Assembly: GCA_963969345.1 (NCBI GenBank)
Contig: OZ017769.1
Span: 8,807,725 to 8,871,724 of the forward strand
Direction of reading: 5' to 3'
Source of the DNA: Turbatrix aceti
Lineage: Eukaryota > Nematoda > Chromadorea > Rhabditida > Panagrolaimidae
DNA length: 64,000 bases
A program made the position numbers and the translations under genes. Positions within the stretch are counted from its first letter, which is position 1, and each line of letters begins with the position of its first letter. Shown here piece after piece: positions 25,736-55,140 of the stretch. Below the pieces are notes generated by a model. The model searched no databases and had not been told where the DNA came from. It worked only from the letters and a program-made list of their open reading frames with translations.

Positions 25736-26706
25736 AATGACTCGCGGTACTGGAGTTTGTGTATGTCACTTTCACAGAGAAAAAATAAATTATTACGCAT
25801 AAAAAATAGCCGCCGGTGATCTTTGCAAAACGCGTCCACATTGAATACCTACTCGCAACATTTGGTCGTTGCACGACAGGCGACAATTGACACGCAAAAC
25901 GTAATCTGATATGACACTCACCCCCGCGTGGATACGGTAAATCATAGTTATTGTACTTCAGAAACGATAGTTTTGATAGTAACGTTCAAATTTTGCTTTT
26001 CGTTTCAAGAAAAGAAGAGGATATTATATAATTCAGTAACGATAGCGCTGATACAGTAACGGTAGTAAGTTACGTTCAAATTTTAGTTTTCTTCTCAAGA
26101 AAACGCAAAATTTGATTCCCAAGTACCGTAACAATAGTACACTTTCATACGTTCCTAAAAAGAATTTTGTTTTTCGTCCCAAGAAAAAAACAAAACGAAA
26201 AGAAAGCACCGGCACGAGGGCAGTTTTCCTCGGTTTCTGCAGCCTGCTTGCACTCACCCCCTCTTCTTTGCACTCGAATTGAAGCGAACAGCGCCGGCTG
26301 TCGTAAGCAAGCAGCAGCTTGCTTGTAGCTTTCGGTTTGTCACGCACGCGGCTGTCGTCTGCGTCTCTGCCCTACACCACTTGCTTGGTTTGTTCAACGA
26401 TTTTTTCTTATTTTTTCTTATCAACACGTGCCCACTTTTGCTTATACCTTCTGTTTTGCACCTTGTCAGGGAAGTGGGGGAAGTATTTGGGGGAGGGGCG
26501 ATACATGCACTTTTTTATGGTAAATGGGTTTTACGATAGCCTTGGCGCTTGGCGTAGTATCGATTTTCCACTCATTTTTTTGTTCTCATTCCAGCATCGA
26601 ACCGCGTGCTTTTTTATTGTTTTTTTCTTCGTGTTTTTCTGGGCCTAAAGTAACTTTTTGAAGGTTTTGAATCGTTTTAGAGAGTGTCAAGTGAACCCCG
26701 AGCGAC
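25736..26706. other. Intergenic region upstream of SDHC
   Basis: No gene seen. 25930-26170 contains three loose repeats of a GTAACGATAG ... TTACGTTCAAATTTT ... TTTCAAGAAAA phrase. A TTTTAG acceptor near 26680 precedes the SDHC start by about 26 bp. Confidence 0.45.
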
Positions 26707-27243
26707 ATGGCCCCTGCACTGAGTGTTGCGCGTTCGACGATGGTGACTGCCCTCCGCGGCATGCGTATGTGTGCCATTCGTCGCGCTGCCGAGAAAACCC
26801 CGATCCAGAAGCACGGCTGGTCGTACCTCCTCCAGCAGGAAGCCTCCGGACGCCCGCTCTCGCCCCACATCAACATCTACAAACCCCAGCTGACGTGGAT
26901 GCTCTCGGGTCTCCACCGTATCTCCGGCTGCGTCATGGCCGGTGTCCTCCTCGTCGGTGGCGTTGGATTTGCGGTCCTCCCGATCAACTTCACCCAGCTC
27001 GTCGACTTTGTCCGTGGCCTCAACCTTCCCGTCGTCATCACGGCTCCCTTCAAGTTTGTCATCGCGTTCCCCATCATCTACCACACGCTCAATGGCATCC
27101 GCTTCATCGCTTTTGACCTCGCGAAGGGCACCGATATCGTCTCCGTCTATCGCTCGGGATACGGTGTCGCCGGAGCCGCTGCTGTCCTCGCTCTCTTGGT
27201 GGTTATCAATGCGATCCTCAACAAGAAGAATACCCAAAAGTAG
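26707..27243 (+). CDS. SDHC: Succinate dehydrogenase cytochrome b560 subunit, mitochondrial
   Basis: Intronless, 178 aa. A basic, Ser/Thr-rich mitochondrial presequence (1-30) is followed by the family signature RPLSPHINIYKPQLTWMLSGLHRISG: the heme/ubiquinone-binding SPH..IY segment and the H-R-x-S/T-G motif. Three hydrophobic helices follow, with the HTLNGIRF segment carrying the heme-ligand histidine. It anchors complex II in the inner mitochondrial membrane and forms the ubiquinone site. Very GC-rich codon use suggests high expression. The C. elegans orthologue is mev-1. Confidence 0.96.
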   Translation: MAPALSVARSTMVTALRGMRMCAIRRAAEKTPIQKHGWSYLLQQEASGRPLSPHINIYKPQLTWMLSGLHRISGCVMAGVLLVGGVGFAVLPINFTQLVDFVRGLNLPVVITAPFKFVIAFPIIYHTLNGIRFIAFDLAKGTDIVSVYRSGYGVAGAAAVLALLVVINAILNKKNTQK

Positions 27244-27353
27244 ACTGTTTTTTGATCTGAAAAAACAAACGATTACCAGCACAACGTAGGGTGGTGTACT
27301 ATCTCTTTTTATGGACGCGTTTTTTTTCAACAATGTGAGTTTTTTTTAAATTT

Positions 27354-27475
27354 GCCGTTTTTATGGCCTAAAAAATGTTTTTTCGCCTTTTTTATGGCCT
27401 AAAAATGATTTTTACCGTTTTTTATGGCCTAAAAATGATTTTTACCGTTTTTATGGCCTAAAAATGTGTTACCTA
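27354..27475. repeat. 30-bp tandem repeat, four units
   Basis: Units of TTTTTATGGCCTAAAAATG plus ATTTTTACCG begin near 27359, 27390, 27420 and 27449, with 29-31 bp spacing, about 110 bp after the SDHC stop. Confidence 0.8.
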
Positions 27476-27730
27476 AAATAAACATTCACCGGTCACCGGA
27501 AAACAGTGAATATTTGTTGACGTTGACTGTTTTCTGGTTCTGTTTTTTTTCTGGGTTTTATCGGCTGTTTTTGCAAAAAACGCAATGAGTGTTTTTATTT
27601 TCCCGGAGAAACTTGAATTAAGATGAGGGACTTTTTTTGGCCTAAAAACGTTGACGTCAGCGTTGTTATCTTTGGGGACTGTTCAATGTAATATCAGGTA
27701 CAAAAACACACGCGTGCACTTTTTTATGAC

Positions 27731-28831
27731 TCCATGCACGGTGCGGAGTGTTCCCAACACGAAAATTTTTAGCGATTTTGTAAAAGTGTTATGTATTCGT
27801 CGACAGTATTCGGGTATCCATATCATTTGCATTTTTTTGGCATTTTGCCATTGTGTCAAGCTAAGATCAAGCTTTTTATAGCACTTCGCACTTTATCGAT
27901 TGCTCGCAAATGAACTTCGCTGCAGGAGTCCAAAGATAGAAAATATCGAATTTTGCTTTAGGCCTCCTGCCTTCCCTGTACTAAAATTTGAAAATTTCGT
28001 CTCAGTCCTGTCTTGGCACTACCCAAAGCTTCAATTTAAGCCGGCATTTGTGATTCTTTATCTACAGGCCTTGACGGAGAGGGCAAATGAAATTTTGACT
28101 ATCTTGACTACGTCGCGGGTGCACCCGTTGTACGATGATTCCGCCCAAATCATGCTTTGTTTTACTAAATCCGACCTCCCGATGCCAAAGAAACACAAAA
28201 AAAGTAGCTATCACAATCTGCAAGCGATATGGACTACGTATAACAGTACTCTGAAACAGGGAACTATGCACGCGCGCGGTGTTCCCCTGGGCTTTTGACG
28301 GCCAAATAGCTTGTGTTTTGGAATGCTGCTACATTGCCCTATACCTAATTGCTTACTTTTTTTTTGTGTTTCTTTGGCATCAGGAGGTCGGATTTAGCAA
28401 AACAAAGCATGATTTGGGCAAAATCATCGTACAACAGGTGCACCCGCGACGTAGTCAAGATAGTCAAAATTTCATTTGCCCTCTCCGTCTAGGCCTGTAG
28501 ATAAAGAATCACAAATGCCGGCTTAAATTGAAGCTTTGGGTAGTGCCAAGACAGGACTGAGACGAAATTTTCAAATTTTAGTACAGGGAAGGCAGGAGGC
28601 CTAAAGCAAAATTCGATATTTTCTATCTTTGGACTCCTGCAGCGAAGTTCATTTGCGAGCAATCGATAAAGTGCGAAGTGCTATAAAAAGCTTGATCTTA
28701 GCTTGACACAATGGCAAAATGCCAAAAAAATGCAAATGATATGAATACCCGAAAACTGTCGACGAATACATAACACTTTTACAAAATCGCTAAAAATTTT
28801 CGTGTTGGGAACACTCCGCACCGTGTCCATG
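27731..28831. mobile_element. Long palindromic (foldback) element with 6-bp target duplication
   Basis: The element is 27737-28825. Its left arm (27737-28208) and right arm (28351-28825) are inverted copies differing at only a handful of bases; the outer 44 bp are identical. The loop is about 140 bp. Termini read CACGGTGCGGAGTGTTCC. TCCATG occurs directly outside both ends (27731-27736 and 28826-28831), which fixes the element as a transposed unit. It has no transposase. Long open frames inside (for example 27900-28298 plus) are shadows of the palindrome. Its superfamily is not clear. A transcript would form a hairpin of about 470 bp. Confidence 0.9.
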
Positions 28832-29248
28832 TAGGATGCGATAAGGAAGACAGTGGGAGCGCCCCAAGCGGGAAAGAAGTATATTAGTAGACTTTACACT
28901 TACCTGTCATGTGCGCGTGTCATACAGCAAAAAAAAAGATGACAGCGCGGGAAATGGGCGAACGAATGAATTTTATGGGTTTGACCGATTTTTTCAAGAT
29001 TATTTTTATCAAACAAACAAAATTTATTACATATTATTTTTTTCTTTTTTTACAAAAAAAAATTTAAAGTGAACATTTTTTCAGGTTCGGTGGATATTTT
29101 TTCCGATACAATACAATAATTTCTGTATGATCTAATATGTTTCGTCAGAATTTGTTGTTCTGATGATTTAGTTAGTAGCACACGGCGTCTATAAAAGTTT
29201 TTTGGAAATTGTTTCTTCGCAAGAATCACAGCACAGAGGGGGGGGGGA
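28832..29248. other. Intergenic spacer
   Basis: AT-rich DNA between the palindromic element and the 3' end of the SDR gene. No gene, repeat or RNA recognised. Confidence 0.4.
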
Positions 29249-31673
29249 CTAGGTGAGTTTGACGTGTTCGGGAACGCCGTGGTATCCGCATTTCTTGGGC
29301 AGGATGCCGCGTTCGATCATGCTGTATGCCATGTCGATGAGAGACGACTCGGGGTTACGGGCCTCGAAGCCGAGCAGGCTTTTGAGCTGAAAAACGAAAA
29401 TTGAGAATTTTATTTAAAAAAAACTAAATTAGGATTTTCATAAAAAAAAGAAAAATTTAGAAGTATAGAAAAAAAAGATTTTTTAAACTGAAAAATCTGA
29501 TTTCTAATACATGTTTTTTATGGGTTTGCAACAGAAAATTTTAGGATTTTAATGAAAAAACTGAAATTAGGATGTTCATTTTAAAAAAAATAAATTTTAT
29601 AATTTTTATTGAAAAAGCAGAAAATTTTAAATTTTTGTAAAAAAAAGCTCACAATTTTTTTCAAAAAAACTGAAATTTTTGAATTCATAAAAAAATGCAA
29701 AAATTAAGTTTCTTTTTTTATTTAAAACTAGAAATTTTTATTTTTATAAAACGAACCAAAGAAATGTAGAATTTTTATTGATAAAAAATGAAAATTAAGA
29801 ATTTCTGTAAGAAAAGAAAAAAATTCGATTTTTTATTTAGGAATTTAATTTCTTTATTCAAAACAAAATGTAGTGTTTTGTTTTTTAGTTTTTTTAACGG
29901 AATTATTGATAAAAAACTGAAAATTTAGAATTTTCGTAAAAAAAGCTAGAAATTGAAAAAAAAAACAGAAAAATTGGATTTTTCATTTTTTTGGATTTGC
30001 TTACCTTGGAATTGTCAAAAACGACCTTCCGATTAATCCGATCGAGCACGGCTTTCGTCTGAGGATCGACGAGGGCGTACAACTTGAGCAGGAACAGGGG
30101 GACCTGTATCTTGGGCAGCCAGTAGCCCTGCGAGCTGAACTCCTTGCCGAGGATCTTGGCGATGTCGCGGAACCAGAGCGACGGCTGGTACGTGAGCAGG
30201 ATGCGCTCGCCGTCCGAGTTCCTCGCGGTCATGGCCTCGACGTGGGCGCGGGCGACGTCACGGACGTCGACGAGCCCGAGCTGGAGCGCAGGGACGGCGG
30301 GCATCTCGTTGTTGAGGAAGCGCCGGACGATGGTGATGCTGCTGCCCTGCGTGTCCATGAGCAGCGGGCCGACGATGAGGGTCGGATTGATGCACGTCAG
30401 CGCGAAGCGGTTCTGGTCGGCGGGGATGGCGTCGACGAAGGCCCAGGCTGAGCGCTCGGCAGCGGCCTTGCTCCGCGAGTAGGGGAGAACCTTGGGGGAA
30501 GTCTCGACGGTCCAGTCCTCCTCGCTGAACGGGCGGTCTTCGTCGTCGTGGCCTTCTGAAATTTTTTTTGTATTTGACAAATCAATTTTTTTTTGAAAAA
30601 GTAAAACTTTTGACGCTCGAAAACATTTTTTTAAAAATTGAAAAAAAAATTGTATTTTTAAAAATGGAGGTTTAAAAAATTTGTTTTTCTAAATTATTTC
30701 GCTTCAAAAATGTAAAAAAGGAAATTTTAAAAATTAAAAAAGTATAAAAAATCGTAAAAATATTTTTTCTAAAAAAATGTGAAAAACGTTTATGTTCGAT
30801 TTTTTCTTTTAAATTCCGTTTTTTTGTTGGTTTTTTATCGTTTAGTTTTTATTTGACGGTTCAAATCTTTCAAGACAATTTTTTTTAATTTAATGTAAAT
30901 AATTTCAAATTTTTTTTCTAAAAAATAAAAAAAATCTTTTTTTAAACTTTTTTGCCAGAATTTTTTTTGAAAACCTGCAAACTCTACTTTTTTCCAAGAT
31001 TTCTATCGTAACAGAAAAATTCGACCTTCCAAGCCCCATAAATCTCCCCAAAAAAAATTCTTACCGTTAATAGCCACACAGGAGGACGTGAGAACAACCT
31101 TGACAACCGATGGCTCCTTTGCGCACGCACGCAGCACCGCCAGCGTCCCCTCGACGGCCGTGGTCACGACGGATTCATCGGCGACGATGGGGAAGGGCGA
31201 GGCGGTGTGGAGGACGTACTTGCAGCCGCTGACAGCCGGGGGCCAGGAGGCCTCGTGGGTGAGGTCGGCCTCGACGAGCTCCAGTCGTTCGTCGGCGTGG
31301 GGCAGGGCTCGGAGCGGGTCTGTCTTCTTTGGGTTCTGCAGGCTACGGACGGTGCCGCGGACGGAATATCCGGCGGCGAGGAGCTGGGCTACGCAGTGGG
31401 TTGCCAGGTAGCCCGAGGCTCCGGTGACGAGGACACCTGTAAAATGTTTTTTGTAGAAGGTGATTTATTTGTGAAATTTGGAAAACGGGTTTTTGCAAAA
31501 CAAAAAACTTTTTCAGGCGGAAAATAATTTCTAAAAGTCGACAAAAACAAAGTTGATCACTACAAAATGTGAATTTGTAGTCCACAACATTTTTTCTGGT
31601 CTCGCGCACCCACCCAATTTTTTTTATTTCCCGTAAACAAAAAAAACTCACGGATGTTGGCCAACGAAGACAT
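29249..31673 (-). CDS. Extended short-chain dehydrogenase/reductase (dihydroflavonol-4-reductase-like)
   Basis: Four exons: 31652-31673, 31065-31436, 30005-30555, 29249-29386; the phases agree, 360 aa. The Rossmann nucleotide-binding motif TGASGYLA (G13xxG16xxA19) starts at residue 12. VLTSS precedes the active site and YSRSK supplies the catalytic Tyr-x-x-x-Lys. The LTCINPTLIVGPLL segment is typical of the DFR/cinnamoyl-CoA-reductase/3-beta-HSD group of NAD(P)-dependent epimerase-like reductases. The substrate cannot be inferred. Introns 2 and 3 (509 and 618 bp) are built of alternating A- and T-runs. Exon codon use is strongly GC-rich. Confidence 0.9.
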
Positions 31674-54488: not shown

Positions 54489-55140
54489 GTCGCCTAACAG
54501 AGATGGCAAAAAAGTGATCTGATGGGTTTGATCGCGTACTTTTCACAACCAATTGAAATGAAGTAATGCAAAGTTATAGTGCCAAGGGTAGTAATTACAT
54601 TTGAGATATTATAATTTGCTGAGCGCATTAATTGGCATAATGACGCGCGCCGTAATTAACGTTTTTTAAACTTTAAAAATTTTATTTCTCAAAAACTACT
54701 GCACTTTTAGAAACGGATGACATATCATTCGACTCAGTTTTTCATGGGCAATTTTATAAAAATATAAAAAGGAGGGGTCACGATTTAAAAAAGTGCCAAA
54801 CTAAAAATGTCAAAATGGCACTTTTTATTTCGGCATTATTTTAAATCGTGAACTATCCTTTTTATATTTTTATAAAATTTCCCATGAAAAACTGAGTCGA
54901 ATGATATGTCATCCGTTTCAAAAAGTGCAGTAGTTTTTGAGAAATAAAATTTTTAAAGTTTAAAAAACGTTAATTACGGCGCGCGTCATTATGCCAATTA
55001 ATGCGCTAAGCAAATTATAATATCTCAAATGTAATTATTACCCTTGGCACTATAACTTTGCATTACTTCATTTCAATTGGTTGTGAAAAGTACGCGATCA
55101 AACCCATCAGATCACTTTTTTGCCATCTCTGTCGCCTAAC
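54489..55140. mobile_element. Foldback (Mutator-like) element with 10-bp target duplication
   Basis: The element is 54499-55130 (632 bp). Two inverted arms of about 300 bp run from AGAGATGGC at the left end to GCCATCTCT at the right; they differ at only a few positions and leave a loop of about 40 bp near 54800-54836. The 10-mer GTCGCCTAAC flanks both ends (54489-54498 and 55131-55140). A 9-11-bp duplication with very long terminal inverted repeats fits Mutator-like elements. There is no coding capacity. Confidence 0.88.

Follow-up and report, generated by a model that had tools for sequence, protein, structure and literature searches.

Within the 64,000-nucleotide stretch of Turbatrix aceti DNA analyzed here (the window) lies a palindrome so nearly perfect that it raises two questions: what kind of sequence it is, and what has kept its two halves alike. 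We address these questions using the locus itself, its relatives elsewhere in the genome and the pattern of differences between their arms.

The palindrome and its surroundings

The palindrome occupies positions 27737 to 28825 of the window (1089 bp). An inverted-repeat search found arms of 467 nt each that are 98% complementary, with 155 nt between them; an inverted repeat of this length and similarity is far beyond chance. An initial annotation of this DNA had already described an almost perfect palindrome of about 1.1 kb, its termini and the TCCATG at both ends, and the present analysis agrees on each point. Its arm length of about 470 bp was also correct, but the loop is 155 bp rather than the 140 bp given there. 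The features of the locus are as follows.

26695-27243, forward strand: succinate dehydrogenase cytochrome b-type ORF (PF01127)
27731-27736, no strand: left target-site duplication, TCCATG, identical to 28826-28831
27737-28203, forward strand: left arm, 467 bp, tip CACGGTGCGG, 98% complementary to the right arm
27737-27806, forward strand: terminal and subterminal block, from the aligned arm starts of representatives
28204-28358, no strand: loop, 155 bp, with a small inverted repeat GGGAAC..GTTCCC
28359-28825, reverse strand: right arm, 467 bp, tip CCGCACCGTG, 98% complementary to the left arm
28826-28831, no strand: right target-site duplication, TCCATG, identical to 27731-27736
29903-30688 and 31003-31464, reverse strand: NAD-dependent epimerase-like ORFs (PF01370)

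The duplication at this locus is 6 bp and no longer; a 7-bp comparison gives 6 mismatches. No gene is apparent inside the palindrome, which is without coding capacity. The longest stop-to-stop frame starting inside it has 138 amino acids and no Pfam match, and an Rfam search of positions 27000-29600 yielded nothing at the gathering threshold. Direct repeats of at least 20 bp inside the element are absent from the matches listed. The element sits between two convergent coding regions, the PF01127 ORF and the PF01370 ORFs, in a window whose GC content is 44.1%. Upstream of the element, positions 27358-27467 contain four spaced copies, about 30 bp apart, of a unit resembling TTTTTATGGCCTAAAAATG.

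Copies, subfamilies and target duplications

We searched a genome of 59.9 Mb in 28 contigs, five of which are 11.4-12.7 Mb long. The whole element gave at least 119 matches, with 40 of 62 candidates scored, so all copy counts are lower bounds. The initial annotation had named the lack of any other copy among the grounds for rejecting its reading, and this is contradicted by the matches, in which the same unit recurs with unrelated flanks.

The copies fall into three subfamilies. Subfamily A has at least 11 near full-length places including that of the window, with 96-99% similarity between the window's copy and each of the other ten. A twelfth A copy (L028, C1:960531-962048) is split at its loop by an insert of about 0.4 kb, and an 8-bp overlap of the match coordinates suggests a duplication of that length. 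Subfamily B, with the tip CACGGTGAGAGCG, has at least seven places, in which most of the element is matched at 74-76%. Two of these places are halves of one 5.1-kb inverted duplication (L016 and L017, C6:9981426-9992720) that is 99.5% identical and carries one B copy per half; this is either a segmental palindrome or a question for the assembly. Subfamily C has the tip CACTACGCGTCA and a length of 1119-1121 bp, and occupies at least six near full-length places, including a palindrome nested in L039. Further C copies occur at C2:9668798, C1:943836, C4:10023037, C4:10030528 and elsewhere. Two pairs of copies look like parts of duplicated segments, because those in L009 and L011 have identical flanks and the two in L012 sit in a 2-kb direct repeat.

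The palindromic layout is common to all three subfamilies. Mean arm identity is 76.6% between A and B, and 50.4% between A and C. Since unrelated DNA aligned with gaps reaches about 50% as well, the homology of A and C rests on the subterminal block (109 bp, 76%) and the loop. The block is shared by A, B and C, and within 27737-27806 the stretch from CGAAAATTTTT to about TTCGTCGACA is recognizable in all of them. The loop at our locus can be aligned with those of B and C copies (in an alignment of eight copies), and the loops align around GGGAAC..GTGTT.

An exact 6-bp duplication flanks 15 of the 23 copies examined (9/12 in A, 1/5 in B, 5/5 in C and 0/1 for a short relative). The duplicated sequences vary, as expected from the mobile element with 6-bp target duplications proposed in the initial annotation: TCCATG, TAGTGA, CCCATG, CCGGCT, CTATCA, CGAGTT, GGCACG, CATCGC, CGACCA, CTTTCG, ACATTT, CACTAC, GAGATA, AATTGG and TGGTTA. 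Symmetrized flanks exhibit a weak preference for A(CNNNNG)T. The copies lacking an exact duplication are L020 and L023 (A copies in which the left tip is damaged), the split copy L028, four B copies and the short relative L074, in which five of the six bases are alike. With its dispersed copies, fixed-length duplications and long inverted repeats that make up most of the element, the palindrome is a non-autonomous terminal-inverted-repeat DNA transposon of the foldback type.

Other palindromes came to light during the searches. Positions 54498-55131 of the window hold another element that is palindromic throughout (634 bp, 95% self-complementary), with the tips CAGAGATGGC and the 8-bp duplication TCGCCTAA, of which nine more near full-length places exist at 97-99%; we take it to be hAT-like. 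A palindrome with CACGATGG tips and the 5-bp duplication CGTCG is nested in an A-family copy (L013:5972-6920), and its 5-bp duplication would presumably suit a Transib-like element. Finally, a palindromic family represented by L088, L089 and L090 shares a 95-bp stretch with subfamily C. Of its three fetched pieces, two form palindromes over almost their whole length without reaching the tips, and the family has at least about 40 half-matches in some 20 places.

Likeness of the arms and its possible causes

The comparisons of arms were based on several sets. Twelve A and five B copies entered the permutation test and the first arm alignment, while 11 A, five B and five C copies were used for identities, fixed differences, approximately unbiased (AU) tests and G.U counts. 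One further arm tree contained A and B only. The split copy L028 was used only in the sets of 12 A copies, and L030, of which a single arm was aligned, was not counted. The sets leave out L017 (which duplicates L016 in inverted orientation), the C copies L086 and L082 (for which no tips were found), and truncated, rearranged or distant copies, namely those in L009, L011-L015, L029-L031, L035, L037, L038, L040-L044 and L074-L077 and the host copy in L039. The list of variable C sites was made without C_L087 and thus covers four C copies. Left and right arms were assigned by the orientation of the loop. The permutation test shuffled right arms among copies, on an alignment trimmed of 10 columns at the start, 4 at the end and all gapped columns.

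Arms of a single copy are 97.6-99.8% identical in A and 97.4-100% in C; the arms of C_L083 and C_L039 are 100% alike, and three A copies reach 99.8%. In subfamily B, the arms differ by 8-11.4% in four of five copies, and the fifth has matched arms. Had the two arms evolved independently since the common palindrome, the divergence between them would be expected to approach that between subfamilies, and A and B are only 76.6% identical. The likeness of arms within copies thus points to concerted change, at least in A.

Individual sites in subfamily A point the same way. Of the 22 informative columns among 12 copies, 7 show full symmetry between the arms. Discordant cells number 29 of 264, whereas permutation gave a mean of 95.2 and a minimum of 49, and none of 2000 permutations reached 29. 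Eight columns among 11 copies have a rarer base that occurs exactly twice, and in five of the eight it lies in both arms of one copy; about 0.006 such coincidences are expected by chance. Two of these five same-copy pairs carry the base usual in B, and could thus be old. A tree in which all left arms form one clade was rejected for A (p-AU 1.8e-11) and for A, B and C together (p-AU 1.3e-66). Loop flipping by recombination between arms could also break up a left-arm clade, without making the arms alike. Taken together, the site patterns and trees indicate that the A arms evolve in concert.

The other two subfamilies behave differently. For B, the left-arm clade was not rejected (p-AU 0.27), and the permutation test found no significant arm matching (158 of 245 cells, with a permuted mean of 168 and 105 of 2000 permutations as low). 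In C, none of 16 variable columns among four copies is arm-symmetric. The divergence and null test in B and the absence of symmetric columns in C imply that homogenization is episodic rather than constant.

Some differences between arms are clustered in tracts. In the A copy L020, the left and right arms each carry their own set of bases at six sites in columns 202-223, and arm differences near the loop are common to several A copies (columns 440 and 443). Two C copies have a four-site right-arm tract in common, and two other C copies are without it. Four B copies share 36 fixed arm differences, at which the A base is in the right arm 23 times, in the left arm 11 times and in neither arm twice. 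In B columns 62-125, all 15 fixed differences put the A base in the right arm. Windows spanning columns 61-140 show that arm to be 93-96% like A, compared with 71-84% for the left arm. There is no excess of A alleles on the right outside columns 62-125 (8 right, 11 left, 2 neither). The plain reading of this pattern is that a short tract from an A-like element was imported into the B right arm. In L036, the fifth B copy, both arms carry the left base at 34 of the 36 sites and the right base at one, and the remaining site is mixed. This copy may have undergone a later left-to-right conversion, or may preserve the state before the import.

We consider that these data are best explained as a whole by a foldback DNA transposon that is moved in trans and whose arms are kept alike by gene conversion, and we put the probability of this explanation at roughly 0.8. 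A putative cut-and-paste transposase would act in trans, recognize the CAC..GTG tips together with the shared subterminal block, and make the 6-bp target duplications. Two findings weigh against this reading: the searches with A and C ends met no partner bearing a transposase, so that mobilization in trans is an inference, and four of five B copies and three of 12 A copies lack an exact 6-bp duplication. The homogenizing step would be DNA gene conversion from arm to arm. It would probably accompany the formation of a hairpin or cruciform, or the repair of a break in one arm with the other as template, and occasional exchange between elements may also contribute. Conversion of this kind could keep a palindrome nearly perfect over long times. 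The initial annotation had offered recent insertion or ongoing gene conversion as reasons for the likeness of the arms. Both are compatible with A copies that are 96-99% like that of the window, and the second gains support from the homogenization seen in A and the tracts in A and B.

A bolder idea is that the palindrome is a maintained state, in which tracts seeded by hairpins would rewrite arms and import sequence from sister subfamilies, such that the ends bound by the transposase cannot drift apart. We regard this idea as rather doubtful on present data. If it is true, the family would be a natural recorder of conversion tracts within chromosomes, and its members self-correcting hairpins.

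Conversion would not be needed if the palindrome were rebuilt at each transposition, with one arm copied back through the loop by self-priming or template switching. Such rebuilding would account for the perfect or nearly perfect copies in C and A. However, it does not readily account for the 36 fixed arm differences shared by four B copies, among them L034 with its exact 6-bp duplication, nor for the arm differences common to several A copies and to two C copies, nor for the six unlike sites of L020. Unlike arms seem to have been inherited through transposition, so that one arm does not simply serve as the source of the whole palindrome each time. We therefore consider rebuilding improbable.

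Slightly less probable still is that selection for a paired RNA hairpin, as dsRNA and a source of small RNAs, matched the arms by compensatory changes. A predicted fold does pair nearly the whole arms and is very stable (-893.4 kcal/mol for the folded strand), and the convergent coding regions on both sides make read-through transcription conceivable. By contrast, arm differences that leave G.U pairs on the plus strand are about as frequent as those that leave A.C pairs (11 versus 15 in A, 58 versus 59 in B, 8 versus 7 in C), although the test has no power in the case of transcription from both strands. The lack of a G.U bias favors DNA gene conversion over selection on an RNA hairpin, and the tracts in L020 and the B right arms resemble copying, not site-by-site compensation. 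A dsRNA hairpin or siRNA, as envisaged in the initial annotation, may arise as a by-product.

Under the preferred reading, in which conversion keeps the arms alike, arm divergence is unsuitable for dating insertions of this type. Long palindromes are unstable, but near-perfect palindromic transposons are common in this genome, and A, B (77% identity) and the more distant C all retain the layout. Moreover, the exchange tracts are readable, one of them being like the sequence of another subfamily, so that conversion both from arm to arm and between elements can be measured from an assembly.

Candidate transposases and related elements

The initial annotation had envisaged other copies and an autonomous partner. 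Copies exist, 11 of them near full-length members of A, but no partner bearing a transposase was found. None was recognized among the at least 119 matches to the whole element, 41 matches to the 70-bp A end (40 of 40 candidates scored), 27 matches to the C end (26 of 26 scored), or the 21 and 29 matches to two tip patterns. Some single-ended matches (e.g. C5:7150372, C5:3840328, C1:806325 and C4:2851582) were read on one side only. Five larger structures (L012, L013, L041, L075 and L082) were rejected as partners, being nested insertions, duplicated segments or decayed copies; scans of selected ORFs saw no transposase in them.

The ends and duplications allow some superfamilies to be weighed. 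Transib elements make 5-bp target duplications and therefore do not match the 6 bp found here. A search with PF12940 (RAG1-like transposase) gave no match here, nor did it detect any of 14 controls. hAT elements usually end in CA..TG. The genome has 17 matches to the hAT dimer domain, and in 3.0-4.5 kb around three of these loci there is no CACGGTG..CACCGTG pair, although ends may lie outside the pieces. As partly described in PMC12730594, hAT6 is a hAT group with 6-bp duplications. Because this length and the CA..TG ends fit, a hAT6-like hAT transposase is our best guess for what moves the family, at somewhat less than even odds. Other groups that make 6-bp duplications fit less well, going by partial accounts of them. 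IS3EU and GingerRoot have TA..TA termini, or occasionally TG..CA in GingerRoot (PMC10045372, PMC12730594), compared with CA..TG here. Dada has no terminal inverted repeats and inserts in small-RNA genes (PMC3706591), in contrast to the 467-bp inverted repeats and 15 differing target sequences in our family. Outside the 6-bp groups, Mutator/Foldback elements of the Tm1 type make duplications of 8-10 bp (PMC3169594) rather than exactly 6 bp.

We also considered whether the ends derive from a Polinton/Maverick element. These elements make 6-bp target duplications and have long terminal inverted repeats, both of which are found here, but their tips are AG..CT rather than CA..TG. The genome contains two Polinton/Maverick-like loci encoding a PF03175 protein-primed polymerase (C2:10469303-10470826 and C5:9996111-9997112), and one of the genome's 70 rve integrase matches (C5:9981309) lies about 15 kb from the locus on C5. 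However, no element or end match is listed at either locus, six ORFs near them matched only the polymerase in Pfam, and when the fetched pieces were compared at high sensitivity, only two matches of 16-19 bp in the arms emerged, both at chance level (E 0.057). We rejected a Polinton parent for want of shared ends, the A-end search being genome-wide and the pieces stopping short of the integrase side on C5, and this origin seems very improbable. An assembly artefact, also raised in the initial annotation, is scarcely credible: long palindromes pose difficulties for assembly and polishing, and there is some small chance that polishing error made the closest arms more alike, but many copies have different flanks and 6-bp duplications of their own, and arm differences within copies range from 0 to 11.4% in a subfamily-specific manner.

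A search by words of open-licence literature, outside Repbase, found no description of this family. The palindromic repeats of C. elegans (Tc4 and the PAL families of Repbase) are likewise near-full palindromes, but their duplications differ from ours, that of Tc4 being TNA. It is well known that foldback elements with long arms occur, including in nematodes, Tm1 of root-knot nematodes being an example (PMC3169594). Tm1 Mutator/Foldback likewise has non-autonomous foldback members, one copy being 1080 bp long. Unlike our element, it has duplications of 8-10 bp, mostly 9 bp, different tips, and composite terminal inverted repeats with tandem 13-15 bp repeats, which are on average 93.15% alike within an element (PMC3169594). 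Galileo, a P superfamily element of Drosophila, also combines long inverted repeats with chimeric copies made by exchange between elements. The excerpted accounts give it 7-bp duplications (8 bp in three copies) with a GTATTAC consensus in D. willistoni (PMC4168063, PMC2775673), while the 6-bp duplications here have no strong consensus. With hAT6 our family has the 6-bp duplications in common (PMC12730594, in part), although no hAT transposase is linked to the ends here.

The Tetris element of Drosophila virilis is also non-autonomous, with inverted repeats, a non-coding middle and, in the portion of its description drawn on here, a transposase partner that was not found (PMC4079207). Its duplications are 8-10 bp and its arms contain TIR-220 repeats, as opposed to exactly 6 bp here. 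The TIR-220 repeats of one element group together in two of three complete Tetris elements, which was read as possible homogenization (PMC4079207). Homogenization of arms has thus been suggested before. What this analysis adds is the family itself, its combination of 6-bp duplications with CAC..GTG ends, and the evidence from sites, tracts and trees for conversion between arms.
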